Assembly: GCF_002154695.1 (NCBI RefSeq)
Contig: NZ_MTAV01000047.1
Span: 31,717-95,716, forward strand
From: Nostoc sp. T09
GTDB taxonomy: Bacteria; Cyanobacteriota; Cyanobacteriia; Cyanobacteriales; Nostocaceae
Reading direction: 5' to 3'
Length of the DNA stretch: 64,000 nt
Shown: positions 4,216 through 31,997 of the stretch, piece after piece
How the letters are laid out: the number at the start of each line of letters is the position of its first letter
How positions within the stretch are numbered: the stretch's first letter is position 1
The notes under the pieces: model-generated
Databases searched by the model: none
Told to the model about the DNA's origin: nothing
What the model saw: only the letters and a program-made list of their open reading frames with translations
Position numbers and translations under genes: made by a program

Positions 4216-4990
4216 ACGTCAGCACCCTTTCGGGTTGGGTATTACCCTATCTGTCCGGTTATTTATTCCCGTTGCCTTTCGGATGACAGCATTCGCTTTT
4301 TATGGCATCCTTTTCCCACTGGGAAATTCGGGTTGGATTACTCCTTTGCTTACTAGTGCCATAGGTCTAGGCTCTAGATCCCATTGGGCTTACTTCGTTC
4401 CACACGTATGAGATGCGATTGGATTAGGTACTCTCTATATTCCGGGGAATTTGGTGTCCTAGCATTGACCAGTCCAGGGGTCATTGCCTTTTGCCTAGCA
4501 AATAAGCGTTTCCTAGGTCTTTTCCCATCACTGTCGTTGTACCAATTGATTGGTTCTAGCCACTTACAACAGCCTGAATATAACGGAACCTCAATGAGAG
4601 TTCATTTTCATTTACCTTACCAATCTTCCTCTTGCCTCCTCCCGAATGTGGTTATCAGGAACGGTTGGGCTTTTCTCTTTAGCTTTGAGATAAGGTAATT
4701 ACTTACCTAACCCCTTTGAGATGAGGACAAGCGTTGGACACTCGCTTGTAAATATCCTTCGGAATCGGTGCATTAATCATGCTTTATTTAAAACCTTATC
4801 CAGTAGAGATATTTAACTCATTACGTGCGACATCGAATCGCACTGGACTTTATTCATAGTATCATTTCACCCCCAGCTGGGGCAGAGAACGCCGACCATG
4901 CTCAAGTAGCAATTTCCGCCATTTAGGGAGCAAGGGAGGCAGAGCAATACAAGCAAGTATATTCTTCCTTGTCTTACTGCCCTCATCCCT

Positions 4991-18108: not shown

Positions 18109-20448
18109 ATGGCAGAAGAACCTACATCTAGGCTAACTAAAAAATATGTCTCTGCTGCCAATAGTCGGTCAGGCAAACCGACAAAAGCAACTTCGACCAC
18201 ATCAACCTACCATTCCCATCTGATGACTTGGTTTGGTCATCTGCTGGCTAGTGCTTCAGTAATAGGAGCAGCACTGCTGAGTACTTCTGGGATGGGCATG
18301 GTGCAATTGATGGAAAGTCAGGCGGTTTCCACTTTTTTTCAACTGCGCGGGTTGGTTGTGCCTCCAGAAGACATCGTGATTTTAGCAATTGATAATCAGT
18401 CTGTATCAGTCCCTGAACAGTACTATAAAACAAATTCACAACAGTATGCTTACCTGGAACCACTGAAATCTTTTCCATTTAAACGTGCTGCATACGCCCA
18501 AGTCATAGAAAAATTGATGCAGGCTGATGTTAAAGCTGTTGCATTGGATGTAGTTTTTGATACACCAAGTAGTTATGGGGTTGCAGACGATCGCCAATTC
18601 CAAGCAGTCTTGCGAAAATATGGCAGTAAAGTTACCTTAGCAGCGCTATATGAAAATTCCGAGTCACATCAAGGAACTTGGAATCAACTAACGCTACCTC
18701 AGCCAATGTTTCGTGTAGGGGCTGTATCTATCGGTACAGTTAATTTCCCTCTAGAGGTAGATGGAAAGATTCATCGATTAGCAAGCGAGTTTAATAAGTC
18801 ATTAGATCAACAAGATGTCTTAATAGATAAAGTGCCGTCCTTTGATGAAGCAGTATTAAGGGCAGCTAAAATTAATTATTCTCGACCAAGAGGCGATCGC
18901 ATTAATTTTTGGGGACCAGCCGGGACATTTGAGCCAATTCCCTTTTGGTACGTACTCGACCCGCAAAACTGGAAAAGCTATTTACAGCAGGGAAAGGTTT
19001 TCAAAGATAAAATCGTGGTGATTGGAGCCACAGCACAGTTAGGCAATGATTATCATCCAGTAGTGGCTGGCAACAATGGGTTTTATCCTGAACGCATGTC
19101 AGGAGTAGAAATTCATGCGAATGCGATCGCAACTTTGATGGAAAATAAAGCGATCGCTCAAGGAATTGTCAGTCCACCCATGCGAGGTTTATTTGTGCTG
19201 GCCATAGTCGGAGGTGCAGTGTTCCTCTGTACTAGAAGCAAGCGAGGCGTAAATAGATTTATATCTAGTATTTTCCTAGCCAGTATTTGGGGAGGGATAA
19301 GCTATGTATTATTCGTACATGAGCAGCTAATTTTCCCCACAACTATACCAATGGTAGCGATCGCCTTAAGTGGATTGTCCTACCTCGGAACCGAAGTAGC
19401 CAGAGAAAGCATTAAAAAGCGGCAATTAGTAGATATATTTCAGAAATATAAATCTTCTCCGGTTGTCCAAGAAATTATCAGTCAACAAGATGACTTGCAA
19501 GATCTACTTCAGCAACGAGATTTAGCCGTCGCCGGGAAAATACTTGGTGGACGCTACAAAATTGTCAAAGTTCTCGGTTCTGGTGGATTTAGCGAAACCT
19601 ATATTGCAGAAGATATCCAACGTCCAGGCAACCCTCGATGTGTAGTTAAACAGCTAAAACCAGCTAACACTAAATCGACGGGATTACAACTTGCTAGACG
19701 TTTATTTAACTCCGAAGCAGAAACCTTGGAAAGATTGGGAAAACATCCCCAAATTCCTCAGTTATTGGCTTATTTTGAACAAGACGAAGAATTTTATTTA
19801 GTTCAAGAATATATAATTGGCCATCCTCTCAGTCAGGAATTGCCATCAGGTCAACTCCTTGTAGAAACTACAGTTATCGAGATTTTACGAGATTTATTGC
19901 AAACATTGGCATTTGTGCATCAAAACAGTGTGATTCACCGCGATATCAAACCGAGCAATATTATCCGGCGACATTCAGACTGGAAGCTAGTATTGATTGA
20001 CTTTGGCGCAGTCAAACAAGCCACTGCACCGCAAATGGAAAATCAAGAACAGACCCCATTTACTATTGGTATTGGCACTAAAGGTTATGCACCCAACGAG
20101 CAATGTTTTGGACGCCCCCAATACAGTAGCGACATCTATGCAGTCGGTATGATTGGGATCAAAGCTTTGACTGGTATTGCACCCCATGAGTTCGATAGAG
20201 ATGCTGATGGAGAGTTGCAATGGAGAGATCGGGTAATGGTCAGCCAACCCTTGGCAAAGATTCTCAGTAAAATGGTTTTGGAAGACTACAAGCAGCGCTA
20301 TCAATCTGCAATAGAGGCTCTAGTGGCGTTTGATCAGTTGGTAAGTTATTCAGATAGAAACTATGTAAACGAAAACGACTCATCAATCAAAACTGCACCT
20401 TCAGACGATCCAGATGCACCTACCACACCTTGGGAAGGACGATCTTAA
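18109..20448 (+). CDS. CHASE2-domain serine/threonine protein kinase
   Basis: 779-aa transmembrane signalling kinase. Membrane segment at about 45-65, an extracytoplasmic CHASE2 sensor domain to about residue 350, and further membrane segments at about 360-435. A cytoplasmic Hanks-type kinase starts near 480: glycine loop VLGSGGFSETY, catalytic HRDIKPSNI, and DFGAVKQ in place of the usual DFG-xx. The ligand is unknown. The upstream gap lacks genes. A terminator lies at 20677-20705. Confidence 0.93.
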   Translation: MAEEPTSRLTKKYVSAANSRSGKPTKATSTTSTYHSHLMTWFGHLLASASVIGAALLSTSGMGMVQLMESQAVSTFFQLRGLVVPPEDIVILAIDNQSVSVPEQYYKTNSQQYAYLEPLKSFPFKRAAYAQVIEKLMQADVKAVALDVVFDTPSSYGVADDRQFQAVLRKYGSKVTLAALYENSESHQGTWNQLTLPQPMFRVGAVSIGTVNFPLEVDGKIHRLASEFNKSLDQQDVLIDKVPSFDEAVLRAAKINYSRPRGDRINFWGPAGTFEPIPFWYVLDPQNWKSYLQQGKVFKDKIVVIGATAQLGNDYHPVVAGNNGFYPERMSGVEIHANAIATLMENKAIAQGIVSPPMRGLFVLAIVGGAVFLCTRSKRGVNRFISSIFLASIWGGISYVLFVHEQLIFPTTIPMVAIALSGLSYLGTEVARESIKKRQLVDIFQKYKSSPVVQEIISQQDDLQDLLQQRDLAVAGKILGGRYKIVKVLGSGGFSETYIAEDIQRPGNPRCVVKQLKPANTKSTGLQLARRLFNSEAETLERLGKHPQIPQLLAYFEQDEEFYLVQEYIIGHPLSQELPSGQLLVETTVIEILRDLLQTLAFVHQNSVIHRDIKPSNIIRRHSDWKLVLIDFGAVKQATAPQMENQEQTPFTIGIGTKGYAPNEQCFGRPQYSSDIYAVGMIGIKALTGIAPHEFDRDADGELQWRDRVMVSQPLAKILSKMVLEDYKQRYQSAIEALVAFDQLVSYSDRNYVNENDSSIKTAPSDDPDAPTTPWEGRS

Positions 20449-20875
20449 AAAACTCCTCATAATTTAGTCTTGATAAACTGTGTAAACCAATAATATGGTG
20501 TCTGGTTAAATACTCATCATTAGGACTGTTCGCGTAGCGTGTCGAAGGTCAGGCTAGGCGTACTTTTCAACTGGTTAGATCTCGAAAAAGGAGGCGATCG
20601 CACGTTTAGGCAAAGCCGTCACAGATTAGGAATTTATCCATAATATATTTAAGAATATTAACAATTTTGGACTTATAACCCTGCCTTCCTGTCTCTGGTA
20701 GGGTTTATTTTTCATATTTAATTGCTAATAAAGAGCTAAATTCCAGTAATGCAAGGACTTAAAACTTGACATGATTTGGATTGCGATCGCAACAAGAAAG
20801 AGTATTAATAATCAATACTATCCATTAAAGTTCATAGCTCACAGAGGTTTCAAGGGGTAGGGAGCCAACACGTGT
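20449..20875. other. intergenic region with SDR-like repeat and terminator
   Basis: 427 bp without a gene. It holds an SDR-like stretch (TTCGCGTAGCGTGTCGAAGG at about 20528) and the hairpin listed separately at 20677. A run AGGGGTAGGGAG just before 20876 can serve as ribosome binding site of the next gene. Confidence 0.5.
20677..20712 (+). terminator. intrinsic terminator
   Basis: AACCCTGCC and GGTAGGGTT form a 9-bp stem (one G-T) with an 11-nt loop, followed by TATTTTT. It lies between the CHASE2 kinase and the ethylene-receptor-like kinase. Confidence 0.7.
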
Positions 20876-22999
20876 ATGTCAGATGTATGGAATATTTTTT
20901 TTAGTTCCGGACCTTTTATCCCGCATGGGCACTGCTATCTATGGAAAACTGATTTAGTTTGGCTACACATCTTATCTGACGCCCTGATTGGACTAGCTTA
21001 TTATTCTATTCCAACTACACTTTTCTTCTTCGTTAACAAGCGGCAGGATCTACCCTTCCATTGGATATTTCTACTTTTTAGTGGATTTATTGTAGCTTGT
21101 GGTACAACTCACTTCATGGAGATTTGGACGCTTTGGCATCCAACCTATTGGCTATCAGGATTAATCAAAGCTGGCACCGCAACCATATCTGTATTTACAG
21201 CCGCACAACTTGTACCGTTGGTTCCACAAGCCTTAGCACTTCCTAGCCCGGCTCAATTAGAACAAGCAAACCTACAACTGCAAACACAAATAGCCGAAAG
21301 GTTGAAGATAGAAGCAGAACTAAGAAAATACCAAAATCACTTGGAAGATTTGGTTGCTCTGCGCACTAATGAAATTACTAAAACCAACGAACAATTACAG
21401 CAGGAAATCACTGAGCGTCAGCGCATATTAGAAGTTTTACGGCAAAGTGAAGAGCGTTACCGTTATTTAGCTGAGGCAATTCCTCAACTTGTATGGACAG
21501 CTGATACTAACGGTGAAGCTAATTATTTCAACCACAAGTGGTGTACTTATACGGGGCTAACATTCGAGCAATCCTTGGGTTCTGGTTGGGTCGCAGCATT
21601 GCATCCAGATGACGTACAAACTGCTCATGAGGTGTGGTTAAATGCTGTTAATAATGGCACTTTATATGAAATAGAATACCGATTCAAACGGGCGGCTGAT
21701 GGTTCTTATCGCTGGCAGTTAGGGCGAGGTTTACCGCTTAAAGATGAACAAGGTCATGTGGTGAAGTGGTTTGGAACTTGTACTGATATACACGAACAAA
21801 AACAGCTACAACAAGAACGTGCCCATTTACTAGAATTAGAACAAGCAGCAAGAGCTAAAGCAGAAGCCGCCAATCGAATTAAAGATGAATTTCTTGCCAT
21901 ACTTTCCCACGAACTACGTACCCCAATGAATGCGATTCTTGGCTGGTCAAAGTTGTTGCAAAGTGGCAAATTAGAACCAGAAAAGATATCTCAAGCGCTA
22001 GCAACAATAGAGCGCAATGCCAAGTTACAGGTTCAACTAATTGAAGACTTACTAGATATCTCCAGAATTTTACAAGGCAAACTGACGCTTAATGTTACGA
22101 ATGTTTACTTAGAATCTATCGTCTTGTCTGCACTAGAAACAACGGCTTTAGCTGCACAAACCAAGTCAATACAGGTGAATACAGTATTTGAAGCCAATGT
22201 CGGGATAGTCTTAGGTAATTCTACTCGCTTGCAACAAGTCGTTTGGAACCTCCTTTCTAACGCTGTTAAATTTACACCCAATGGGGGAAAGATAGAAGTA
22301 CGATTGAGCAAGGCGGATGGCTATGCTCAAATCATAATTAGCGATACAGGTAAAGGAATTAGCGCTGAGTTTTTGCCTTATGCATTTGATTACTTCCGCC
22401 AAGCAGATAGCAGTTCAACAAGAAAATTTGGTGGCTTAGGTCTGGGATTGGCAATTGTCCATAATATCGTTGAAATGCATGGCGGTACAGTCACAGCAGC
22501 CAGCCAGGGCGAAGATCTAGGGGCAACTTTTACGGTCAACTTACCGCTTGTGCAAGACAAAAGCGAAAGTTTGAATGAACACAATTACTCCTCTGACTTA
22601 ACACCTAAGTCTTTATCCCTGGGAGGTATGCAAATTTTAGTTGTTGATGATGATGCAGATTCGCGAGATTTTATTGCTTTTGTATTAGAGCAAGATGGGG
22701 CTGAGGTAATTGCAGTATCTTCGGCATTAGAAGCATTACAAACCATAGAACAGAAAAAGCCAGATGTATTAGTCAGCGATATCAGTATGCCTGATATGGA
22801 TGGCTATACTCTAATGCACCAAGTGAGAGCTTGGAGTACAGAAAAAGGAGAACAAATTCCGGCGATCGCTCTGACTGCCTTTGCAAGACAATACGATCAG
22901 CAGCAAGCACTCCAAGCCGGGTTTCAGATGCATTTAGCCAAACCTGTTAACCCAGAAGAATTAGTTGCAGCGATTGTTAGACTGGCTGGGGTACGATGA
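20876..22999 (+). CDS. Ethylene-receptor-like hybrid histidine kinase
   Basis: 707 aa. The N-terminus is a three-helix ethylene-binding domain. It keeps an Asp in the first helix (LHILSDALIGLAYY), and Cys and His in the second (VACGTTHFMEIW), the residues that hold copper and ethylene in plant ETR1. Coiled coil at about 130-190, PAS domain 190-310, HisKA with phospho-acceptor LSHELRTPMNAILGW near 340, HATPase_c (NLLSNAVKFTPNG, GLGLGLAIVHN) and a C-terminal receiver with ISDISMPDMDGYTL. Related cyanobacterial receptors control phototaxis or pili. ATG follows an AGGGAG ribosome-binding sequence. Confidence 0.93.
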   Translation: MSDVWNIFFSSGPFIPHGHCYLWKTDLVWLHILSDALIGLAYYSIPTTLFFFVNKRQDLPFHWIFLLFSGFIVACGTTHFMEIWTLWHPTYWLSGLIKAGTATISVFTAAQLVPLVPQALALPSPAQLEQANLQLQTQIAERLKIEAELRKYQNHLEDLVALRTNEITKTNEQLQQEITERQRILEVLRQSEERYRYLAEAIPQLVWTADTNGEANYFNHKWCTYTGLTFEQSLGSGWVAALHPDDVQTAHEVWLNAVNNGTLYEIEYRFKRAADGSYRWQLGRGLPLKDEQGHVVKWFGTCTDIHEQKQLQQERAHLLELEQAARAKAEAANRIKDEFLAILSHELRTPMNAILGWSKLLQSGKLEPEKISQALATIERNAKLQVQLIEDLLDISRILQGKLTLNVTNVYLESIVLSALETTALAAQTKSIQVNTVFEANVGIVLGNSTRLQQVVWNLLSNAVKFTPNGGKIEVRLSKADGYAQIIISDTGKGISAEFLPYAFDYFRQADSSSTRKFGGLGLGLAIVHNIVEMHGGTVTAASQGEDLGATFTVNLPLVQDKSESLNEHNYSSDLTPKSLSLGGMQILVVDDDADSRDFIAFVLEQDGAEVIAVSSALEALQTIEQKKPDVLVSDISMPDMDGYTLMHQVRAWSTEKGEQIPAIALTAFARQYDQQQALQAGFQMHLAKPVNPEELVAAIVRLAGVR

Positions 23000-23075
23000 G
23001 AAAATTGCTAATATTGCTAATTTTGGAATTAAAGTTTTACTAATTTATTTATAAAGCAGGCGATCGCTTTATATT

Positions 23076-23528
23076 TTATGATGAAACAATTTTATTAATA
23101 CTAATTAAACGTTGAATTTCTGCTAATAATACGGTAGGTTCTACAGGTTTATTAACGTAACTTTGAAAACCCAATGCTAGAGCCATGCTGCGACTTTCGT
23201 CAGCACTAAGAGCAGTTAGAGCGATCGCTGGCATCTGTCGTTGTTCAGAAATGCTGCTTTCTCTAATTTTGCGAATGAACGAATAACCATCGACATCTGG
23301 CATAGCAATGTCAGAAATTAAAATATCAAATTTTAACTGTTTAATTATTTCTAAAGCTTGTGAGACTGATGTTGCTGTTTTTACCTGCAAGCCGTTATGT
23401 TCAAGGATAAACGTAATTAGGATCAAGCTATCTTCGTTATCATCTACTAATAGAACTCGCAAGCTATCTAGAGATTGAACGTTTTTTATATCTTCTTGGA
23501 GATGTGGAGCTTCAGCGTTACTTGTCAT
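23076..23528 (-). CDS. Single-domain response regulator
   Basis: 150-aa receiver-only protein. Acidic pair VDDNED near 31, phosphoryl site ILISDIAMPDVDGY, and Thr/Lys switch residues ALTALS and YVNKPVEP. It is close in sequence to the receiver at the end of the neighbouring histidine kinase, which converges on it. It lies 157 nt downstream of the Ro gene on the same strand. Confidence 0.9.
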   Translation of the reverse strand: MTSNAEAPHLQEDIKNVQSLDSLRVLLVDDNEDSLILITFILEHNGLQVKTATSVSQALEIIKQLKFDILISDIAMPDVDGYSFIRKIRESSISEQRQMPAIALTALSADESRSMALALGFQSYVNKPVEPTVLLAEIQRLISINKIVSS

Positions 23529-23574
23529 GGTTAATATGTGCCTCCTTAGTTGCCTGCATCAATTACGGAGGAAG

Positions 23575-23611
23575 TCCCACGAGACAGCTATTACATAACT
23601 ATCTCGTGGGA
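23575..23611. repeat. 10-bp hairpin between Ro gene and response regulator
   Basis: TCCCACGAGA and TCTCGTGGGA are perfect inverted arms around a 17-nt loop. No U-run follows on either strand, so it is not a typical terminator. It may stabilise a transcript end or be a processing site. Confidence 0.5.
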
Positions 23612-23684
23612 ATCTAACAACAAGCTACCACAACATTAGGCTTAAGCCAGGGGAAATATTTTCATCCTTCATGTTTCAGCCTTT

Positions 23685-25289
23685 TTACAGTTCACCTGTA
23701 GCCAGCATCTGGATGATGCGCGGTGTTCCAGGGTCGAACCCGGCCAAATCCCAGGAAAGTGGATCTTGAGGATCTACCAAGGTAATGTTGTAAGGTGCAA
23801 GGGTAACATACACTGCCTTGGCATTGGGATTTACCTTCTGACGGTAGTGTGCTAATGCTTGACTTGGATGCTTAGACCCAGCCCATGACTCATTATCAGT
23901 CCAAAAGCATACTACATCTGCTTTGAACTTGTTCTTAATCATCCAGTCGTAAGCTACAGAAGCATCTGTTCCACCAAAGTTTTGGTTACTAGCTTTGCGA
24001 AGTGCAGAACTAAAACTATCTTTGGCAGTGATACCTAATTCCCTAAATTCGGTAGCAAAGCCGCGAATCATGTAGTTTTTCTCTGCCTTTGCTGTTACCA
24101 GCGCCATTGCAGTAGCAATTTCACAGCAACTTAAGCCTACTGAATCAACCGCACTCCAAGACATGGAGCCAGAAACATCCACAGCGTGCATGAATACTTT
24201 GCCTGTAGGTTGCACGACATCAAAAGACAGTTCCACTGCCTTTTCTAAGATGTCTACAATCCGAGATACTGGTTCCCAATTCTTCTGGCTACGTCCTAAT
24301 TTGCCACCAGATTGATAAGTTTTGAGGGCTTTCAAAACATCAATTGGATGTATGCGACCTTTACGCAGATGTTCTTTGTTGTTGAGAACTGCTTCTACTC
24401 GTAAAATATTGGCACTTTCATCAGCTCGTAACACACCCAGTTCTGTCAAAGAACCAAGATTACGCAGCATTGCACCTATTGGCATTTCTTGGAAAAGCAA
24501 CTGCCAAGCTTGTTTATCCATCTTGCCCACAGGTGCAGCCATTTCATGAGTTAGGCGACCTTGAGCGATCGCTGTATGGGTTTCGTTAGGATTCCGTTTG
24601 AGCCACTCATACCACCAAATCTGCGCCAATGCTTCAGAAGGGATATCTGCTGGCAAATCTTCCCAACCTTTAACTACCCACTCAAATAATTCACGGTGAG
24701 TTTCTGTAGGTGGTTTGACATGGAACAACCGCAATGCATCTCGGTGAGAGAAGCCTTGACGCTGTTGATATTTCAACAGTTGATAAGCCAAACCTTTGAC
24801 ATCTTCCCGCGAAAGCCAAGTTTTCCCAGCTTCGCGCACTACCTTACCAAATCCCCGCAGCGATTTGGTATAGTTCAGCCATTCGTAGAAGTGGCTACCT
24901 GTGCGGATAACTTGCCCAAAGATTTCACCAAACGCCTTTTTGGCTTCTGGTGTTTCACCCATCGACAGCAGCACTAATGCCAAGATAGGCGCACTGTTAT
25001 TGATGGCGCGGCCATCGCTAGCATAGAGAATTTCCTCTGCAACATGCCCCGGATTCTCTGCAACAGCTTGTTTAACAACCATTACAAAATCTTCAGTTAA
25101 TTCTTGCTTTCCCGCGTAGTAAGTGCTTTTTGCTGTGCCAATCAACAGACAACGGCGCAGCATTTTCCAAATACCCGCATCAAACATATACCCGCCGGAA
25201 CGTCCTTTAATCATCTCTGCTTCCCGTCCGGGGATAGGCTGAGTTTGCGGTGTATTTGCTTTCTTTTTAGTAAAAAAATTGTAATTCAT
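23685..25289 (-). CDS. rsr: Ro60/TROVE-domain RNA-binding protein (Rsr-type)
   Basis: Bacterial orthologue of the Ro60 autoantigen: a ring of helical repeats that binds Y RNAs on its surface and misfolded RNA ends in its cavity. About 534 aa from MNYNFFTKKK. The TROVE region runs to about 340 (SGGYMFDAGIWKMLRRCLLIG, EILYASDGRAINNSAPILAL, LRGFGKVVREA). A vWA domain follows with MIDAS motif DVSGSMSW. I reject the longer frame to 25382 because its extra codons are tRNA-like unit 1. Upstream, same strand, are six tRNA/Y units from one promoter; the gene may be the last cistron. The leader has a GNRA hairpin (25302-25315) like those in the units. Confidence 0.93.
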   Translation of the reverse strand: MNYNFFTKKKANTPQTQPIPGREAEMIKGRSGGYMFDAGIWKMLRRCLLIGTAKSTYYAGKQELTEDFVMVVKQAVAENPGHVAEEILYASDGRAINNSAPILALVLLSMGETPEAKKAFGEIFGQVIRTGSHFYEWLNYTKSLRGFGKVVREAGKTWLSREDVKGLAYQLLKYQQRQGFSHRDALRLFHVKPPTETHRELFEWVVKGWEDLPADIPSEALAQIWWYEWLKRNPNETHTAIAQGRLTHEMAAPVGKMDKQAWQLLFQEMPIGAMLRNLGSLTELGVLRADESANILRVEAVLNNKEHLRKGRIHPIDVLKALKTYQSGGKLGRSQKNWEPVSRIVDILEKAVELSFDVVQPTGKVFMHAVDVSGSMSWSAVDSVGLSCCEIATAMALVTAKAEKNYMIRGFATEFRELGITAKDSFSSALRKASNQNFGGTDASVAYDWMIKNKFKADVVCFWTDNESWAGSKHPSQALAHYRQKVNPNAKAVYVTLAPYNITLVDPQDPLSWDLAGFDPGTPRIIQMLATGEL

Positions 25290-25301
25290 GACTTCATCTC
25301 C

Positions 25302-25315
25302 CGGCCCTTGCGGGC
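25302..25315 (-). promoter_or_regulatory. GNRA-capped hairpin in the Ro gene leader, matching the Y-insert cap
   Basis: Minus strand reads TTGCCCGCAAGGGCCGGGAG just before the Ro start: GCCC-GCAA-GGGC followed by the GGGAG ribosome-binding run. Unit 6 has TTGCCCGTAAGGGCCGAC at the same place in its insert. It is either a remnant of a seventh unit or an element allowing Ro to act on its own messenger. Confidence 0.55.
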
Positions 25316-25325
25316 AAAAATGAAA

Positions 25326-25477
25326 GGTGGCAGGGCAGGATTTGTAGACGCGAAGCGGCTTCCCGAAGGGTACCTGCGACATCCCGCTTGGAAGGCGATA
25401 ACCCTCATTCTTGGGCCTTTACAGACAAGGGGTGAACAAGGATGTTTTAGGCGCTCTACCACTGAGCTACCTGCCAC
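25326..25477 (-). ncRNA. tRNA/Y RNA chimera, unit 1 (anticodon UCC, Gly-like), T-loop interrupted
   Basis: Acceptor GTGGCAGG/CCTGCCAC (8 bp), D arm GCTCAGTGGTAGAGC, C27 then a 52-nt Y hairpin (25399-25450), then TCGC-CTTCCAA-GCGGG. The anticodon stem is rebuilt as CTCGC/GCGGG. The Y cap is GTCT-GTAA-AGGC. Two marks of decay are seen. The Ro motif reads GCCCAAG instead of GCCGAAG. The T loop is 33 nt because a 26-nt SDR-like sequence (25340-25372) is inserted. No CCA is encoded. It is nearest to the Ro gene. Confidence 0.8.
25344..25372. mobile_element. Small dispersed repeat (SDR-type) inside the T loop of unit 1
   Basis: GTAGACGCGAAGCGGCTTCC followed by CGAAGGGTA is the kind of ~25-nt GC-rich element scattered through Nostoc genomes. 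It expands a 7-nt T loop to 33 nt without disturbing the T stem GCAGG/CCTGC, so its ends are clear. Confidence 0.7.
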
Positions 25478-25546
25478 ATAAAGAATTTTGGATTTTAGAT
25501 TTTGGATTTTAGATTTTGAAATTAAATCTCAAATAAATTAAAATTT

Positions 25547-25688
25547 TGGCGGGTGGGGCAGGAATTGAACCTGCAACCTTTGAATTAACGATAACCCTCA
25601 ACTCGTCGGCCTTTTCAGGCAAGGTTGTGAAGCAAGGACTATGGGTAATTAACCCGTTCACTGCTCTACCAGATTGAGCTACCCACCC
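25547..25688 (-). ncRNA. tRNA/Y RNA chimera, unit 2 (Asn-like, insert apparently in the anticodon loop)
   Basis: Acceptor GGGTGGG/CCCACCC (7 bp), discriminator G and encoded CCA. D arm GCTCAATCTGGTAGAGC, T arm GCAGG-TTCAATT-CCTGC. The anticodon stem is best formed by TGAA and TTCA on either side of the insert. The insert then sits in the loop before GTTAA, which would give anticodon GUU. The insert is longer, with an extra hairpin GGGT-TAATT-ACCC before the Y stem. Its cap is GCCT-GAAA-AGGC and its Ro motif GCCGACG. The anticodon call is tentative. Confidence 0.7.
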
Positions 25689-25712
25689 ACATAAAAATTT
25701 CAATTTAGATTT

Positions 25713-25838
25713 TGGGTGGTGGGGCGGGACTCGAACCCGCGATGCTCGTCTTGCAAACGATAACCCTCAATTCTTCGGCCTTTGCAGGCAAGAGGTGAAT
25801 AAGGATATTAAGCGCCTTACCACTTGGCTACCCACCAC
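25713..25838 (-). ncRNA. tRNA/Y RNA chimera, unit 3 (anticodon GCA, Cys-like)
   Basis: Acceptor GTGGTGGG/CCCACCAC, encoded CCA, D arm GCCAAGTGGTAAGGC, T arm GCGGG-TTCGAGT-CCCGC. The 51-nt Y hairpin (25761-25811) separates C27 from T28; the stem CTCGT/ACGAG then holds loop TTGCAAG. The Y part has cap GCCT-GCAA-AGGC, Ro motif GGCCGAAG and GGGTTATC. One unpaired T and a U-A for U-G change relative to the other units preserve the helix. All conserved tRNA residues are present (GG in D loop, TTC in T loop). Confidence 0.85.
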
Positions 25839-25866
25839 ATAACAATTCAAAATGCAAAATTAGGTT

Positions 25867-25992
25867 TGGGTGGCGGGGCGGGATTTGAACCCGCGACCTC
25901 TCGAACCCAAATCGATAACCCTAATTCGTCGGCCTTTGCAGGCAAGGGGTGAACAAGGATGTTTAGCGCTCTACCACTGAGCTACCCGCCAC
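25867..25992 (-). ncRNA. tRNA/Y RNA chimera, unit 4 (anticodon UGG, Pro-like)
   Basis: Acceptor GTGGCGGG/CCCGCCAC with CCA encoded directly after it. D arm GCTCAGTGGTAGAGC; 50-nt Y hairpin (25916-25965) between C27 and T28. The anticodon stem CTCGA/TCGAG is a perfect 5 bp around TTTGGGT, with G37 as in proline tRNAs. T arm GCGGG-TTCAAAT-CCCGC. Y cap GCCT-GCAA-AGGC; Ro motif GGCCGACG. Removing the insert leaves a 76-nt tRNA. Confidence 0.85.
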
Positions 25993-26063
25993 ATTAAAAG
26001 TTATGAGTTGTGAGCTATGAGTGCTGAGTTTGGAATTTTTAACTCAGTACTCAGTACTGATTT

Positions 26064-26193
26064 TGGTGTGGCGGGGCAGGATTTGAACCTACGACCTTCC
26101 CGATTATGAGTCGATAACCTTCATTCTTCGGCCTTTTCAGACAAGGGGTGAACAAAGATGTTTTTGGCGCTCTACCACTGAGCTACCCGCCAC
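26064..26193 (-). ncRNA. tRNA/Y RNA chimera, unit 5 (anticodon CAU, Met-like)
   Basis: Acceptor GTGGCGGG/CCCGCCAC, discriminator A, encoded CCA. D arm GCTCAGTGGTAGAGC; 52-nt Y hairpin (26115-26166) between C27 and T28. Anticodon stem CTCGA/TCGGG around CTCATAA; the CAU could read Met, or Ile after lysidine modification. Y stem CTTTGTTC/GAATGAAG differs from unit 1 (CCTTGTTC/GAATGAGG) by a compensating C-G to U-A change. Ro motif GGCCGAAG and cap GTCT-GAAA-AGGC are intact. Confidence 0.85.
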
Positions 26194-26257
26194 ATTAAAA
26201 GTTATGAGTTATGAGTGCTGAGTGAAAAATTCAAAGCTTAGTACTAATTTTGGTGTT

Positions 26258-26391
26258 TGGTGTAGCGAAGCAGGATTTTCACCTGCATCTCCAGAAATGG
26301 ATCAAGGGTGTTTAAGTTATTTGCGATAACCCTCGATATTGTCGGCCCTTACGGGCAAGGTGGGCGCTCTGGTATTTGAGCTATCCGCTAC
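26258..26391 (-). ncRNA. tRNA/Y RNA chimera, unit 6 (promoter-proximal, re-ordered Y stem)
   Basis: Acceptor GTAGCGGA/TTCGCTAC, discriminator A, encoded CCA. The D loop AAATACCA lacks GG and the T loop TGAAAAT lacks TTC, so the elbow contacts of a true tRNA are lost. The cap GCCC-GTAA-GGGC and GGCCGAC remain. The other Y strand, which precedes the cap in units 1-5, here follows it as TAAACACCCTTGAT. It pairs 9 bp with ATCGAGGGT. No readable anticodon. This strand order is that of ordinary Y RNAs. Confidence 0.7.
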
Positions 26392-26433
26392 AGAAGAAAG
26401 CTTACTCCTTTTGGAACATCGGCTTGTATTATT

Positions 26434-26462
26434 AATGTAGTATGCGTGTTACTAGATGTCAA
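26434..26462 (-). promoter_or_regulatory. Promoter of the tRNA/Y array
   Basis: Minus strand TTGACA (26457-26462), 17-nt spacer, TACATT (26434-26439): an exact -35 and a 4/6 -10 at ideal spacing, about 43 nt before unit 6. No other good promoter is seen between units. The array and possibly the Ro gene would be one transcript. Confidence 0.65.
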
Positions 26463-26826
26463 GTATTTAGGAAGCTGAGTTTGACATTAATTGTCTCAGT
26501 CAAAAAAACTATCTACAACTACTGGAGCGTCACTGCGCTATCGCTATCACTCCACTTAAATAAAGAAGTATATATAATTACTAAAAATTTTACTTTTGCC
26601 AGACTGGCATAATTAGCACAAGCTGTTTTTTTGGCAAAAATCTTGATTTAAAAGAATTACAGGCTGAATAATTTGCCAATACTTCAGGTAGCTTACAGTG
26701 CATAAAAATTATTAATGTTATATTTTTCCAACAAATTTGCCGTAACTTTGCCAAAAGATACAAAAAAATGTCACAATTTTTGCCAAGATAATAATTATTT
26801 CTTTTCTAACAATTCACTTGGCAGCA
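26463..26826. promoter_or_regulatory. Intergenic region with repeated TTTGCCAA motifs
   Basis: AT-rich 360 bp between divergent transcription units. TTTGCCA(A) occurs at 26595, 26632 (inverted), 26672, 26747 and 26779, with further copies at 26883 inside the next gene and 27591 just after it. These look like protein binding sites for the downstream gene or the array promoter. Confidence 0.45.
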
Positions 26827-27564
26827 ATGAGCATGAGTGAAAAGACACTAGAAGGCAGCGGGAAGGCTTTTCTCGTTCTGCTTTTGCCAATCTCGTTTTT
26901 GATTATTTTCCTTGTTTCCACTTGGAAATTTTTGCTGGCTTTAATACTGCTGCTTATTGGTTTCAATGTTTGGCAGTGGCATCAATGGCAACAGTGGTGT
27001 CAGCAAGTTAATCCTATTTTCCATCGACTGCTTCAGGACACTCAGGGCAGAGTGACACCGATGGACTTGGCAATCAAGGGTAATTTTTCTGGAACAATAG
27101 CCAAACGCTACCTAGATACTAAAGCCAGCGAATTTGGTGCCAGTATTCTGAATTCTGAAGATGGCGGTCCAGTTTATTACTTTATCAATGCCACCATTTT
27201 GGGAAGCATACTCGAAAGTAGTGAGCCTGCTAAGGAACTTCCTTCTCAATCAGTTGCCCAAGCTGCTCCTATACTACTGGCACCAACGCTAGCACAGCCC
27301 CAGCCTGAAGAAACAGACGCTGAATTATTGCCTCCAGCAACTCATGAAGAAGTCAAAATACCTTTGGAAAAACAATTAGTTTTTGGCTCACTGATTCAAT
27401 CAGAACTTGCTAAAAGGCTCAATGTTTATTCCAGTACGGTATATAAACGGCGAAATGACCCTGACTTTCCTGAATGGAGCCGCAGTCGCGATCCAGATGG
27501 TATTGCCTGGTCATTCTCTCGAAAATCTAAGGAGTTTTTCCCCTTAGACGAAGATAAAAGTTAA
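26827..27564 (+). CDS. Membrane protein with a C-terminal DNA-binding-like domain
   Basis: About 245 aa, not assigned to a named family. Two close hydrophobic helices at about 13-45 (FLVLLLPISFLIIFLVS, FLLALILLLIGFNVW) anchor it. The middle part has LLQDTQGRVTPMDLAIKG, resembling a winged-helix-like fold, and a Pro/Glu linker. The C-terminus SELAKRLNVYSSTVYKRRNDPDFPEWSRSRDPDG looks like a MerR/excisionase-type helix-turn-helix. I use ATG 26827; a TTG at 26818 is possible. Its promoter region carries repeated TTTGCCAA sites. Confidence 0.7.
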   Translation: MSMSEKTLEGSGKAFLVLLLPISFLIIFLVSTWKFLLALILLLIGFNVWQWHQWQQWCQQVNPIFHRLLQDTQGRVTPMDLAIKGNFSGTIAKRYLDTKASEFGASILNSEDGGPVYYFINATILGSILESSEPAKELPSQSVAQAAPILLAPTLAQPQPEETDAELLPPATHEEVKIPLEKQLVFGSLIQSELAKRLNVYSSTVYKRRNDPDFPEWSRSRDPDGIAWSFSRKSKEFFPLDEDKS

Positions 27565-27744
27565 AACTAGAAACTTGATTTTCCTGGCTTTTTGCCAAGG
27601 AAAAAATATCAACAATCAGTCGACAGTGAACAGTGAGGAGTTTTTCAGATGGGATTTAAATTAGCCCATTTCTGGAATTCGTAAGTTTGAGTTGAGGTCT
27701 AAATCCCAACTCAAACTTTGAGAACTAATAATTATTAAATGGTT

Positions 27745-28887
27745 TTAATTTTTAGCTTTTGCTGCTAAACCTACAGCTGCATTGATGGAAGTTAATCCGC
27801 TTTCTTCTAACTTAGAAAGTAAACCTGTGAGAATGCGGCTTACCATCATAGGTCCTTCGTAAATCCAGCCTGTATAGACTTGAATCAGGCTAGCACCAGC
27901 AGTAATTTTTTCCCAGGCATCTTCTGGGGTAAAGATGCCACCAACGCCAATAATCGGCAATTGCCCTTGGGTTTGCTGCCAAATAAAACGAATTACTTCA
28001 GTAGAACGATCGCGTAATGGTGCGCCGCTAATTCCACCAGCTTCTTCTTGCACAGTTTTGCCTGTTTTTGCAATCACCTGAGTTTTCAGCAAATCACGGC
28101 GAATAGTGGTGTTAGTAGCAATTAACCCCGTAATTTGGTAGGTATTGGCTAAAGCAATAATATCAGCGATCGCTTCCCATTCTAAATCAGGTGCTATCTT
28201 GACAAAAATCGGCTTTTGTGATTTATTATCTTGTTGCAATAAATCTAAGATAGAGCCGAGCATGGCTGCATCTTGGAGCGATCGCAACCCTGGCGTATTA
28301 GGGGAAGACACATTAACTACAAAATAGTCTCCCCAATCTTTAAGTAAACGAAAACTATTGAGGTAATCGTTTGCAGATGCTTCTAAAGGGGTTACTTTAG
28401 ACTTGCCTAAATTTATACCTATAGGTATTCGCTGGTTTAATTCTTGTTTCCCTTGCGCCAATCGTGCTGCCAATGCTGCTGCACCGCTATTATTGAAGCC
28501 CATGCGGTTGAGGGCAGCTTTATCTAACGGCAAACGAAACAAGCGAGGGCGGGGATTTCCTGGCTGGGGAATAAATGTCACTGTTCCCAGTTCTGCAAAG
28601 CCAAAACCAAGGCTTGACCAGATCTGGGAGGCAATGCCATCCTTATCAAACCCAGCTGCTAAACCTAGAGGGTTAGGAAAGTTTAGCCCAAACAGATTTT
28701 GTTCTAAACGGGGGTCGTATAAGCATAATGACTGCTTAAGGAGGCCATTAACCCATCTAGCAGGTGGGCGATCGCTTCTTTGGGAGAGCCAGCCAAGAGT
28801 GTTAATCGTCTTTTGGTGTAACCACTCTGGATCTGTTTTGAGCAGATTAAACAACAGTGGACTAATTGCTATTTGATAGATATCCAT
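27745..28887 (-). CDS. pyrD: Dihydroorotate dehydrogenase (quinone), class 2
   Basis: Membrane-associated FMN enzyme of pyrimidine synthesis, passing electrons to quinone. About 380 aa from [13 protein letters not shown]. Motifs: [35 protein letters not shown] (catalytic Ser region), [26 protein letters not shown]. The first 13 codons of the longer frame are CATGGGGCATTGGGCAT-type intergenic repeat and are excluded. Confidence 0.95.
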
Positions 28888-28994
28888 TCCAATCACAGTT
28901 GCCATAGGGCATTGGGCATGGGGCATTGGGCATTAATTATTTCACCGCGTCCCCGCGTTCCCTGTCTCCTTGTCCATCTTACTCATCTTTTTAT

Positions 28995-29030
28995 TCTGCC
29001 CTCTGCCTTCTGCCTTCTGCCTTCTGCCTT
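28995..29030. repeat. Heptamer short tandem repeat (CTTCTGC)n
   Basis: Four tandem copies of TTCTGCC/CTTCTGC between pyrD and the GAF-domain gene, the short tandem repeat class common in heterocystous cyanobacteria. A shorter copy is near 61028-61050. Confidence 0.75.
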
Positions 29031-29102
29031 ATTTTTAGATGCTAATTTTAAACGCAACTTATTATCAGGGTGCTTTTCTGGGCATCTTATATATTACAAG
29101 TT

Positions 29103-31997
29103 ATGTTGACTAATAATCAGATGGGACCGCCAGAAAAACCAATAGCTGCTGAAAAACAGATAATTTCCTTGGGGCGTGTCCTCCAGAAACTCAGGGAAGA
29201 GGATAATGTTGAAGTTTTAATTGAAACTACTATTGCTTACATTAAAGAGCAGTTTGACTACCAACTAATTTGGATTGCTCTTTACGATCGCCTGAATCAT
29301 ACATTGTATGGCAAAGGCGGCATGACGCCTACTAAAGACCCTAATTTCTTACAGCAGCGCTTAGTTCTCAGTTCAGGAGATTTATTAGAACAAGTCGTAA
29401 TTGAACAGCGTCCCTTAGGTGTAGCCGATTTAAGAGATGAACACCGCGCTGATACATTACAGGAAGTAGCGAAAAAATTCCAAATCCAAGGAACGATTGT
29501 TTTACCGATTCGCTATCGAGACCGCTGTTTGGGTTTGGTATTACTAGGTTCGCAAAGCTGGGGCTATTTACTAGCTGGAGACGCAAAAGCAAGGCTATTA
29601 ATGGTTTTAGCCGAACTGGGGGCAGTACTTTATCAACATGAGATAGATTTGCAGCAAAAGCAAACCAAGCGGATTGAGGAGCCTTTGTTGCGATTGTTAG
29701 AAAATTTACGCTCCCTAAGTAATTTAGATAAAAAACTAGAAGCCGTAGTAGAAGCAACTCATCAATTTGTTTCCCCATCTCGAACAAATATTTACTGGTT
29801 TGAACGAGAAGGGCGCTACTTTTGGTGTCGGATGAGCAATCAGCTGCTCAACCTCGGTCGCAACTCTGGTCCCCAGCAACCAGCAGTAGGAATTTCTGTG
29901 CAGGACTTGAGTGAATTTTATTACGCTTTGGTAGTCAATCAAGTTGTCTCGATTGGTGAGTCACGTAGTTCTCTCAATAGCCATGTTACAGGCAAGCTAC
30001 TCCAACGCCTGCGGGTGCGATCGCTGTTGGCAGCTCCCATCATCTGTCAAAAGGAATTGCTGGGTTTTCTGGCAGTAGAAGGCAATCAACCTCGCATCTG
30101 GACAGATACAGACAAAAATTTCGTCCAAGGTGCGGCTGGGTTAATCTCTTTGGTTGCCCCCACTGATAACATGGAAAGTACCATCAAACAAATTCAAGCG
30201 GATGCCCAGTTAACTAGTCAAGTTGCCCAAGCTATCTATAGTGAGCATGACCTTCAAGAAGTACTACGTATCTGTGCTCAGAGAGTTTTAGATCGACTTG
30301 GTACCACCCGCTTTTTATTGTTGCGTTATGACCCTGACCAAAATCATTATCAAATTCTGCACCAAAGCCAACTCCAGAATCGCCGACCTTTGACATTTAC
30401 ACTCAATGCTCTCAAAGATTTAGATAGACAGCTTTTGCAGCGTGTCACTGAGGCAGTGGAGATTGAGAATTTAGATGAAGATCTGCGATTTTTTAATTGG
30501 CGGCCATTTTTTATCGAAAATGGTGTGCATTCTCTACTAGTTTGCAACTGTGCTCAGGGTAATTCCCCAATAGCCCTTGTCGTCATTGCTCATGAAACGC
30601 ACCGCTGTTGGACGACTTTAGAAAAGGAACTGCTATGGGTTGTCAGCCAACAAGTTGGTGTAATTGTTCGTCAGTGGCAACTGCAAGGCAATAACGAGCA
30701 GCAAAAAACAATCTTACACAGCCTACAACAATGCTTGCGTATCTTGGCACAAACCCAGAGTAAAACAACAGATACAGAAGAACATCATCTAGAACGCACC
30801 GCACTGCAACAAATAGCATCTGTTCTGGGTTGTCCTTTAGCATTAATGCTATCTTGGGCACCTGGCCAGAATCAGGCAGAAATTATCCCAGGAGTCATTA
30901 CTAATAAGGGATTTGAGATTGTTGCTAATACATCGATCTCTGTTCAGACTGAAGTTCTCATCCAATGGGCACTTGCCCAAGAAGGTTACCTCAGCCTCAG
31001 AGTAGATGATTTGCCTCCAGAAACCAGAAATTGGTTGAATGGGTCGGATATTGGTCAAATTTTGGTGATGGTATTACGTACTTCCAATGCTTATCAACCC
31101 ACAAGTGTGGTGTTATTTGCAGACCATCGAGAGCGTTATTGGTCGGAGCAAAGCCTCAGTGCGGCTGAAACTCTTGTTTGTCAATTAGCTTGGTTGCATC
31201 GTCAAAAGCAAATTACCCAACTTCTAGAGTTGGCAACCGAGGACTTACGACAACTCAATTGGTACAAGCATCGTCGTCTAGAAGAAATTCACAGAGCAGC
31301 AACGCCGTTACTCTCTCAGATTCATGATTCGGGCATTTCTGCCCAGGAAATACGAGAAACACGCCCCCAACCACTAATGCGGCAGTTAGAGCACGCAACA
31401 GCCTCGATCGCAGAACTGCTCAAATATGAGCAATGGCAGTTACACATAAAATCGGAAACTATACCTGTAGCCAGTTTGCTGAAGCGAGCCATCGAAAAAG
31501 TGGACAATTTACTTAAACAACATAAGCTATGGGTAGGTGTGCATGGCTTAGGACAGTCTGTTGTAACTCAGGAGTCACCAAAAAATTCTGCGGATCTTAA
31601 AGGTACTCAAACTTTAGGAAATCAATCCTCAATGGCGATCGTCGGTGACAGTAGAAAAATTGAACTAGTGCTTCAGGAATTATTGGTTGTAGCCTGTCAA
31701 CGTTCTCAGCCTGGAGGCAGAATTGATATCTGGTGTCGTCGCTTAGATGAGGGAATGTTAGATATTTCGATTACAGACAGTGGCCCTATAGAAGCGCTGC
31801 TACTAGAAGAGCTAAATCAAGATCAACCCAAGGATTTGCTTGCTGTCTCTAGCCTAGATCAACCACCAGGTTTGCACCTTTTAATCTGCAAAAATCTCAT
31901 GCGACAAATGCAAGGCGAATTGCATTTCTATCAGTTACCAGATAATCGAGTAGTCAGCCGATTACTGCTACTGTTAGCTACACATATTTCACAGTAA
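29103..31997 (+). CDS. Multi-GAF sensor protein with degenerate histidine-kinase-like C-terminus
   Basis: About 964 aa, soluble, from MLTNNQMGPPEKP. Several GAF-type sensor domains are visible (about 30-200, 215-365, 385-535, 560-710). After a helical region RRLEEIHRAATPLLSQIHDSG, where the usual H-E/D-LRTP motif is missing, there is an ATPase-like fold (MAIVGDSRKIELVLQELLVVACQ, LDISITDSGP, LHLLICKNLMRQMQGEL). The missing phospho-acceptor motif suggests a non-canonical kinase. No phytochrome PHY domain or chromophore Cys is obvious. Confidence 0.75.
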   Translation: MLTNNQMGPPEKPIAAEKQIISLGRVLQKLREEDNVEVLIETTIAYIKEQFDYQLIWIALYDRLNHTLYGKGGMTPTKDPNFLQQRLVLSSGDLLEQVVIEQRPLGVADLRDEHRADTLQEVAKKFQIQGTIVLPIRYRDRCLGLVLLGSQSWGYLLAGDAKARLLMVLAELGAVLYQHEIDLQQKQTKRIEEPLLRLLENLRSLSNLDKKLEAVVEATHQFVSPSRTNIYWFEREGRYFWCRMSNQLLNLGRNSGPQQPAVGISVQDLSEFYYALVVNQVVSIGESRSSLNSHVTGKLLQRLRVRSLLAAPIICQKELLGFLAVEGNQPRIWTDTDKNFVQGAAGLISLVAPTDNMESTIKQIQADAQLTSQVAQAIYSEHDLQEVLRICAQRVLDRLGTTRFLLLRYDPDQNHYQILHQSQLQNRRPLTFTLNALKDLDRQLLQRVTEAVEIENLDEDLRFFNWRPFFIENGVHSLLVCNCAQGNSPIALVVIAHETHRCWTTLEKELLWVVSQQVGVIVRQWQLQGNNEQQKTILHSLQQCLRILAQTQSKTTDTEEHHLERTALQQIASVLGCPLALMLSWAPGQNQAEIIPGVITNKGFEIVANTSISVQTEVLIQWALAQEGYLSLRVDDLPPETRNWLNGSDIGQILVMVLRTSNAYQPTSVVLFADHRERYWSEQSLSAAETLVCQLAWLHRQKQITQLLELATEDLRQLNWYKHRRLEEIHRAATPLLSQIHDSGISAQEIRETRPQPLMRQLEHATASIAELLKYEQWQLHIKSETIPVASLLKRAIEKVDNLLKQHKLWVGVHGLGQSVVTQESPKNSADLKGTQTLGNQSSMAIVGDSRKIELVLQELLVVACQRSQPGGRIDIWCRRLDEGMLDISITDSGPIEALLLEELNQDQPKDLLAVSSLDQPPGLHLLICKNLMRQMQGELHFYQLPDNRVVSRLLLLLATHISQ

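Follow-up and report, generated by a model that had tools for sequence, protein, structure and literature searches.

Tandem tRNA-like units with a predicted Ro-binding Y hairpin upstream of Ro60 genes in Nostoc sp. T09 and related genomes

The bacterial Y RNA YrlA (Rfam RF02553) has a Ro-binding stem and tRNA-like D, T and acceptor parts, and its gene adjoins that of Ro. According to the available portion of PMC8394870, YrlA has these arms and this stem and links Rsr to PNPase in a complex named RYPER (Rsr-YrlA-PNPase); there, and in the Rfam consensus, the two RNA ends form the Y stem and the acceptor end is closed. In Salmonella, Ro, Y RNAs and RtcB are encoded in one operon, rsr-yrlBA-rtcBA, which is switched on by broken tRNAs (PMC7790460, available portion). 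In Anabaena, TrcR represses rtcB and the long tRNA operon trn, where it protects 5'-TGTAGTAT-3' at the -10 box, and translation stress relieves the repression (PMC10272220, available portion). The present analysis concerns an array of six tRNA-like units on the minus strand of Nostoc sp. T09 (25327-26391), located upstream of a Ro60/TROVE gene (23685-25289). Coordinates refer to the window, which is the whole stretch of 64,000 nucleotides (nt) that was analysed (contig NZ_MTAV01000047.1, positions 31,717 to 95,716).

In units 2, 3, 4 and 6 the anticodon stem is split by a closed hairpin of 50-52 nt that carries the Ro-binding motif, which is altered in unit 6. Such units, here called tRNA-Y, occur in every surveyed genome of the order Cyanobacteriales that has an orthologous Ro. 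An initial annotation of the window had described six tandem minus-strand units behind a promoter and ending at the Ro/TROVE gene. They are present as described, and all six match R1, a covariance model for which 29 units were taken from the window and from relatives. The units and the gene that follows them are:

26262-26391, minus strand: unit 1, an aberrant tRNA-like leader unit with a 37-nt Y insert (R1 score 47.4 bits)
26068-26193, minus strand: unit 2, tRNA-Y with anticodon loop CTCATAA (anticodon CAT) and a 52-nt insert at 26114-26165
25870-25992, minus strand: unit 3, tRNA-Y with anticodon loop TTTGGGT (TGG) and a 50-nt insert at 25915-25964
25716-25838, minus strand: unit 4, tRNA-Y with anticodon loop TTGCAAG (GCA) and a 51-nt insert at 25760-25810
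25550-25689, minus strand: unit 5, tRNA-Y with a 69-nt insert and without a normal anticodon arm (R1 score 68.5 bits)
25327-25477, minus strand: unit 6, tRNA-Y with anticodon loop CTTCCAA (TCC), a 52-nt insert, an interrupted T loop and an altered Ro motif
23685-25289, minus strand: Ro60 orthologue with TROVE and Ro60 von Willebrand factor A (vWA) domains, 534 amino acids

Every helix of the proposed fold covaries over 96 units (93 distinct), and this includes the pairs that bridge the insert, so the anticodon stem is indeed rebuilt across it as the initial annotation had stated. Standard pairs make up 94.7% of the pair cells compared with 80.2% in shuffles, changes on both sides occur in 31 of 36 pairs, and pairing is only 36-55% when the 3' partners are slid by one to three columns. 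The alignment was fitted to the model, and the key test was repeated model-free from the D-stem and T-stem positions alone; 7 of the 96 units were dropped and 3 duplicates merged, leaving 86. Nucleotide 27 then pairs with nt 43 in 72 of the 86 distinct units (at most 52 in 500 shuffles), which agrees with the earlier description. Nucleotide 28 on the 5' side pairs with nt 42 in 77 of them (TA 40, CG 27; at most 61 in 500 shuffles), and therefore the insert in units 2, 3, 4 and 6 sits between nt 28 and 29, one position further on than the 27/28 site first proposed. These and later counts are inflated by related strains and genomes and are not independent. Single-sequence folding gave z values of -1.4 to -3.5 for seven units, some with minimum-energy folds unlike the model, and lends the fold weak support.

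At its tip the insert forms a stem of four pairs, and a bulged C comes next. Apical hairpins were found in 243 cases among 285 distinct units, and a GNRA tetraloop closes the Y stem in 190 of these. As judged from sequence and covariation only, the units have the features of the Ro-binding motif given in the available portion of PMC4726728 and in the Rfam consensus, namely a helix, a bulged C and a larger bulge on the opposite strand. In 22 of the 285 units the acceptor, T or D frame was missing. TTATC or TTACC precedes the T stem or inner anticodon stem in 258 of the remaining 263; no loop was read in the 5 that lack this flank. At the 3' end of the insert, TTA(T/C)C is largely unpaired in the model. 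The same order of parts is found in vertebrate Y RNAs, with a Ro stem with bulged C, an upper stem and then GUUAUC (the human sequence is that quoted in the initial annotation). That likeness, drawn from motif order only, holds as far as the order goes. Vertebrate Y RNAs have no tRNA body, and bacterial and vertebrate Y RNAs are called not homologous in the part of the review PMC4726728 available.

A covariance-model search of relatives, as suggested with the initial annotation, found units at E<=2.1e-10 in 68 of 291 genomes of the order; the next best match, at 9.7e-9, is in the range of ordinary tRNAs. In this survey 12 candidates were scored per genome, with filters able to lose weak matches. 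Ro at E<=1e-140 is present in exactly those 68 genomes, which belong to 19 families, and the proposed link to Ro is thereby strengthened. The remaining 223 genomes have no units at E<=2.1e-10; 219 of them have no Ro match at 1e-20, and four carry only a Ro fragment or a distant Ro. The 68 of 68 is a co-occurrence per genome, and in G129 and G183 the listed units and Ro are on different contigs. Of 266 Ro loci in named genomes the best 80 were used; units were found in 78, all 214 units lie on the Ro strand, and the median gap to Ro is 38 nt. The Ro proteins nearest to that of the window within the same 80 have 95% identity, for example in Calothrix membranacea FACHB-236 and Nostoc carneum NIES-2107.

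Ro matches are found in 28 of 292 genomes sampled across the phylum. In other orders of the class, units occur in two Ro loci (L138 and L139), and among three Ro loci outside the class they are present in L142 and absent from L140 and L141. The Ro gene of L142 adjoins a long tRNA array. Among the members of this array are tRNA-Y units (66.5 and 49.5 bits) and a YrlA-like RNA, whose 38.4 bits fall short of the Rfam cut-off of 69. R1 matched in 1 of 18 genomes in the class of G343, a genome recorded as 7% contaminated. Among Ro loci from a virus collection (80 kept from 254), eight have units at E<=1e-8: L238, L240, L248, L249, L255, L291, L299 and L316, of which L248 resembles L249.

Several other arrangements were seen around Ro. 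A Y-bearing unit downstream of the gene, seemingly without D arm and in some cases UUCG-capped, is present in L021 (2814-2924, minus strand), L022 (7679-7789), L023 (7696-7806), L024 (2814-2924, minus strand), L025 (7649-7760), L026 (2813-2924, minus strand) and L032 (7603-7713). L248 and L291 have a further Y-like GGGCCGA...GGTTATC outside the tRNA-Y units, no more than 300 nt ahead of the first of them. L143 (G265) has a distant Ro of 33% identity in a stretch of 8.6 kb where ARAGORN reports 21 tRNAs. Next to this Ro are two weak YrlA-like matches (26.4 and 25.5 bits), and a search for tRNA-Y units found none there. In L141 the nematode stem-bulge RNA model RF01656 matches beside Ro at 4703-4768 and 4843-4908 on the minus strand (37.4 bits, cut-off 38, and 31.3 bits). 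Ro is split in two or left as a remnant in G001 (L033), G113, G064, G181 and G011 (L034); units are kept in G001 and G113, and none were found at the cut-offs used in G064, G181 and G011.

Units 2, 3, 4 and 6 reach 119-141 bits with R1. The score of unit 1 is close to those of ordinary tRNAs, which reach about 45 bits, and units downstream of Ro also score in that range; the assignment of these units rests on the Y motif. Across the whole genome R1 gave 28 matches among 150 candidates scored, which are the six units and 22 matches coinciding with tRNA hits. Matches from about 1e-4 to 1e-8 were not counted as units because they come largely from ordinary tRNAs. None of the six window units was detected by ARAGORN, and units 4 and 5 pass the Rfam tRNA model RF00005 with a long gap. 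Units 1, 3, 4 and 5 had all been given inserts of 50-52 nt in the initial annotation, which is right for units 3 and 4 and wrong for units 1 and 5 (37 and 69 nt), and the normal anticodon arm ascribed to unit 5 is not there. The D loops are longer in units 1 and 5, and the D arm of unit 4 has the same sequence as the D arm of tRNA-Cys and tRNA-Gln of its own genome. The T loop of unit 6 is broken by a 26-nt element (25346-25371), and its Ro motif (25412-25428) reads GGCCCAAG, with a G to C change. In relatives, the T arm of a Leu-type unit is broken by similar elements, from about position 5484 of L020 and 5460 of L022.

The tRNA-Y unit differs from YrlA in that a tetraloop closes the Y stem, the acceptor end stays open (with RNA ends placed from sequence), an anticodon arm is often kept, and the units form arrays. 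The closed Y hairpin inside a linear tRNA, described from the outset as the reverse of the YrlA topology, is thus upheld at the level of the predicted fold. As the same strands stand in another order than in YrlA, the unit as modelled is a circular permutation of the YrlA plan plus an anticodon arm. The gathering score of 69 for RF02553 was not reached by the array; the best match, 50.6 bits, spans two adjacent units. YrlA RNAs spanning neighbouring units were considered and rejected because there is a locus with a single unit (L031), the Y stems are closed by tetraloops, and the Rfam match omits the Y motif. No such RNA was found in titles and abstract openings on cyanobacterial or Nostoc Y RNA, permuted tRNA, phage Y RNA, TROVE, YrlA or Ro60, and an earlier description is possible, for example in Chen et al. 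2014. What appears to be new here is the TrcR 8-mer tandem at the promoter of the array, at a long tRNA array and at an rtcB-family gene, together with a mini Y hairpin at the start of Ro.

A fully paired 3-bp inner stem with a 7-nt loop is present in 121 of the 263 framed units. Among these 121 units, U33 is found in 120 and a purine at position 37 in 117, and 24 anticodons are represented. Of the 14 distinct loops in an initial set, 5 exactly matched tRNA loops of the window genome, where 0.6-1.9% was expected. The unit adjoining Ro switches among TCC, CTT and TTT loops, each equal to a real tRNA loop. Some units have six-nt loops or no anticodon arm, and ordinary tRNAs for CAT, TGG, GCA and TCC are present in the window genome.

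At the acceptor end, position -1 is G and position 73 is C in 196 of the 263 framed units; the two positions pair in 241, giving an acceptor stem of eight pairs. An encoded CCA is in register in 136 of 287 units and absent from that position in 151, and 77 of the 287 have eight acceptor pairs, then A, then CCA. Because of these 77, a His-tRNA reading of the G(-1):C73 pair was set aside. By these counts the units as a group depart from the seven-pair acceptor and normal anticodon arm of elongator tRNAs. The pattern of acceptor, CCA and redundancy would fit mimicry better than decoding. The suggestion that tRNAs are placed under Ro control is not supported in the sense that the array would supply functional tRNAs, since the anticodons are covered by ordinary tRNAs, eight-pair acceptors predominate and fewer than half of the framed units have a full inner stem and 7-nt loop.

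Upstream of the array lie two elements:

26434-26462, minus strand: sigma-70-like promoter TTGACA-17-TACATT
26425-26443, plus strand: tandem of operator-like repeats, TGTATTAT TAA TGTAGTAT, which lie 11 bp apart across the -10 box

The promoter scan gave five such sites compared with 2.6 expected, and the promoter call draws most of its weight from TTGAC(A/G), which is found at a similar distance in 30 of 30 related upstream regions (the distinct ones among 81 loci that have the unit-1 pattern and at least 100 nt upstream). The second half of the tandem is the 8-mer protected by TrcR in the Anabaena trn promoter, so that the mark of the TrcR regulon stands at the -10 box of the Ro array. In the window the tandem has one match at up to 2 mismatches, itself perfect, and at least one such match arose in 16 of 100 shuffles; the single 8-mer occurs 4 times compared with 1.66 expected. 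In the 30 distinct upstream regions the 8-mer is exact in 27 (1.1% of shuffles), and the 11-bp tandem is present at up to 2 mismatches in 27 (0.3% of shuffles). In the window genome, the long tRNA array has three copies of the 8-mer and is preceded by the tandem, and the tandem also precedes the second-best of three RtcB-family hits. The shared 8-mer suggests that the array is induced by stress through a putative TrcR-like repressor, and Ro, an RtcB-family ligase and reserve tRNAs of one cyanobacterium probably form one stress regulon. The trn operon of Anabaena PCC 7120 is alike in being a tRNA array with TGTAGTAT over its -10 box, but it was reported as tRNA genes, and neither Ro nor tRNA-like appears as a term in the available text of PMC10272220. 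The Salmonella operon resembles the present system in placing Ro, a tRNA-like Y RNA and RtcB under one tRNA-damage control, whereas in Nostoc the rtcB-family gene lies elsewhere and is linked by the promoter repeat only, and the likely regulator is TrcR-like rather than RtcR.

The window Ro has the TROVE domain and a vWA domain with the residues of the metal ion-dependent adhesion site (MIDAS), in which DxSxS is invariant in 8 of 8 sequences, and it matches structure 2nvo at E 2.3e-74. A longer open reading frame starting at 25382 was rejected in favour of the start at 25289. One further element lies between the last unit and this start:

25298-25318, minus strand: mini Y hairpin UUUGCCC-GCAA-GGGC-C-GGGAG, overlapping the likely ribosome-binding site of Ro

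This hairpin mirrors the tip of the Y hairpin. Its form is mostly a GCCC/GGGC or GCCU/AGGC stem with a GNRA loop, then C or U. It is present in 71 of 86 distinct leaders compared with 7 of 1980 coding windows and 57 of 4300 shuffled leaders, a count that omits L029, L142, L143 and four viral loci and adds L032. A first, stricter pattern gave 55 of 105, after which C or U was allowed behind the stem. Ro would likely bind the leader hairpin and limit its own translation, and the position of the hairpin over the ribosome-binding site suggests that this repression sets in when free Y hairpins run short.

The favoured explanation is that the array RNAs, likely Ro's own partner RNAs, are Ro-bound tRNA mimics of a tRNA-damage response; taken as a whole it has about an even chance of being right. 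Translation stress would lift a TrcR-like repressor and turn on the array together with the long tRNA array and the RtcB-family RNA ligase. The parts of the Salmonella type, dispersed in this genome, would thus be rejoined by a TrcR-like operator. Ro would hold the array RNAs by the Y hairpin, as the homology of Ro and the Y RNA motif suggests, and the tRNA-Y RNAs may then offer a bait or docking site to enzymes of anticodon-loop cleavage or repair. This role is favoured because the anticodon loop is often kept, though a plain Ro tether would not need one; kept loops would favour a partner that reads them. Taken alone, the bait or docking role is the weakest step and is put forward tentatively, at clearly less than even confidence. 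The tethering of Ro to tRNA-handling enzymes proposed in the initial annotation is close to, and compatible with, this explanation.

Several observations weigh against the favoured explanation. A full inner stem with a 7-nt loop is missing from 142 of the 263 framed units, the tRNAs of the window genome share only 10 of the 42 distinct loops (39 of 121 units), and the commonest loop, TTAGGGT (15 units, anticodon AGG), is not among them. The best-scoring RtcB-family hit of the window genome lacks the tandem, and among 26 more distant or viral loci only 5 show the tandem at up to 1 mismatch. A search of L142, L143 and four viral loci did not find the leader hairpin. Salmonella YrlA, which unlike many tRNA-Y units has no anticodon arm, gave no fragments after DNA damage and was judged not to be a nuclease substrate; in the same available portion of PMC7790460, Hughes et al. 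name competitive inhibition of a nuclease as one possible role of YrlA, itself uncut.

The main rival to bait or docking is that tRNA-Y is a local form of YrlA, a plain tether in which the tRNA part connects Ro with PNPase or with tRNA-modifying enzymes, the anticodon loops being inherited leftovers. The RYPER precedent and the many units without a full inner stem and loop speak for it, but leftovers would not be expected to keep U33 and purine 37 so strictly across 24 anticodons, nor would the unit next to Ro be expected to vary among loops that are all real tRNA loops, and this explanation is considered possible though on the unlikely side. The units also resemble intron-containing tRNAs in that extra sequence breaks the anticodon arm, and the Y hairpin could be excised and the exons joined, perhaps by RtcB, to give extra tRNAs under stress. 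Both halves of the anticodon stem, outer and inner, are kept, the array shares its promoter repeat with an rtcB-family gene, and CCA is in register in nearly half of the units. However, the window anticodons are already covered by ordinary tRNAs, CCA in register is missing from the other units, eight-pair acceptors prevail, and some units have six-nt loops or lack the arm. The insert differs from known introns in its 28/29 site, its length of about 50 nt, its GNRA cap and its Ro motif, no known splicing signal was seen, and no group I intron core was hit with Rfam at 20000-30000 with E up to 1; splicing is thus improbable.

Cis-regulation only, in which units in the Ro mRNA leader titrate Ro and are tRNA-shaped only so that RNase P and RNase Z can trim the leader, would account for units on the Ro strand a median of 38 nt before its start and for the mini Y hairpin at the likely ribosome-binding site. 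It has no need of varied anticodon loops and does not explain the further unit downstream of Ro in some genomes, and it is given little credence. That a repeated hairpin element invaded tRNA genes in decay might be suspected from the damage in unit 6 and the irregular units 1 and 5, but covariation of all helices, strict co-presence with Ro, constant strand and spacing relative to Ro, and units in other orders and virus-collection loci make this highly improbable. A wider form of the favoured explanation, which is possible but doubtful, is that tRNA-Y is a distinct class of RNA that arose when real tRNAs of diverse specificity acquired a Ro-binding hairpin in the anticodon stem. These RNAs would be stress-induced, Ro-held anticodon decoys working with RtcB and a reserve tRNA array, in cyanobacteria and Ro-bearing viruses, and kin to YrlA by circular permutation. 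The kinship is suggested by L142, where a YrlA-like RNA and tRNA-Y units share one tRNA array beside Ro.

With these units Ro would gain a partner RNA of open tRNA architecture, and a possible relation between YrlA and tRNA is suggested. Autoregulation of Ro and the role of bacterial Y RNAs may thereby become testable in cultured relatives of this Nostoc.

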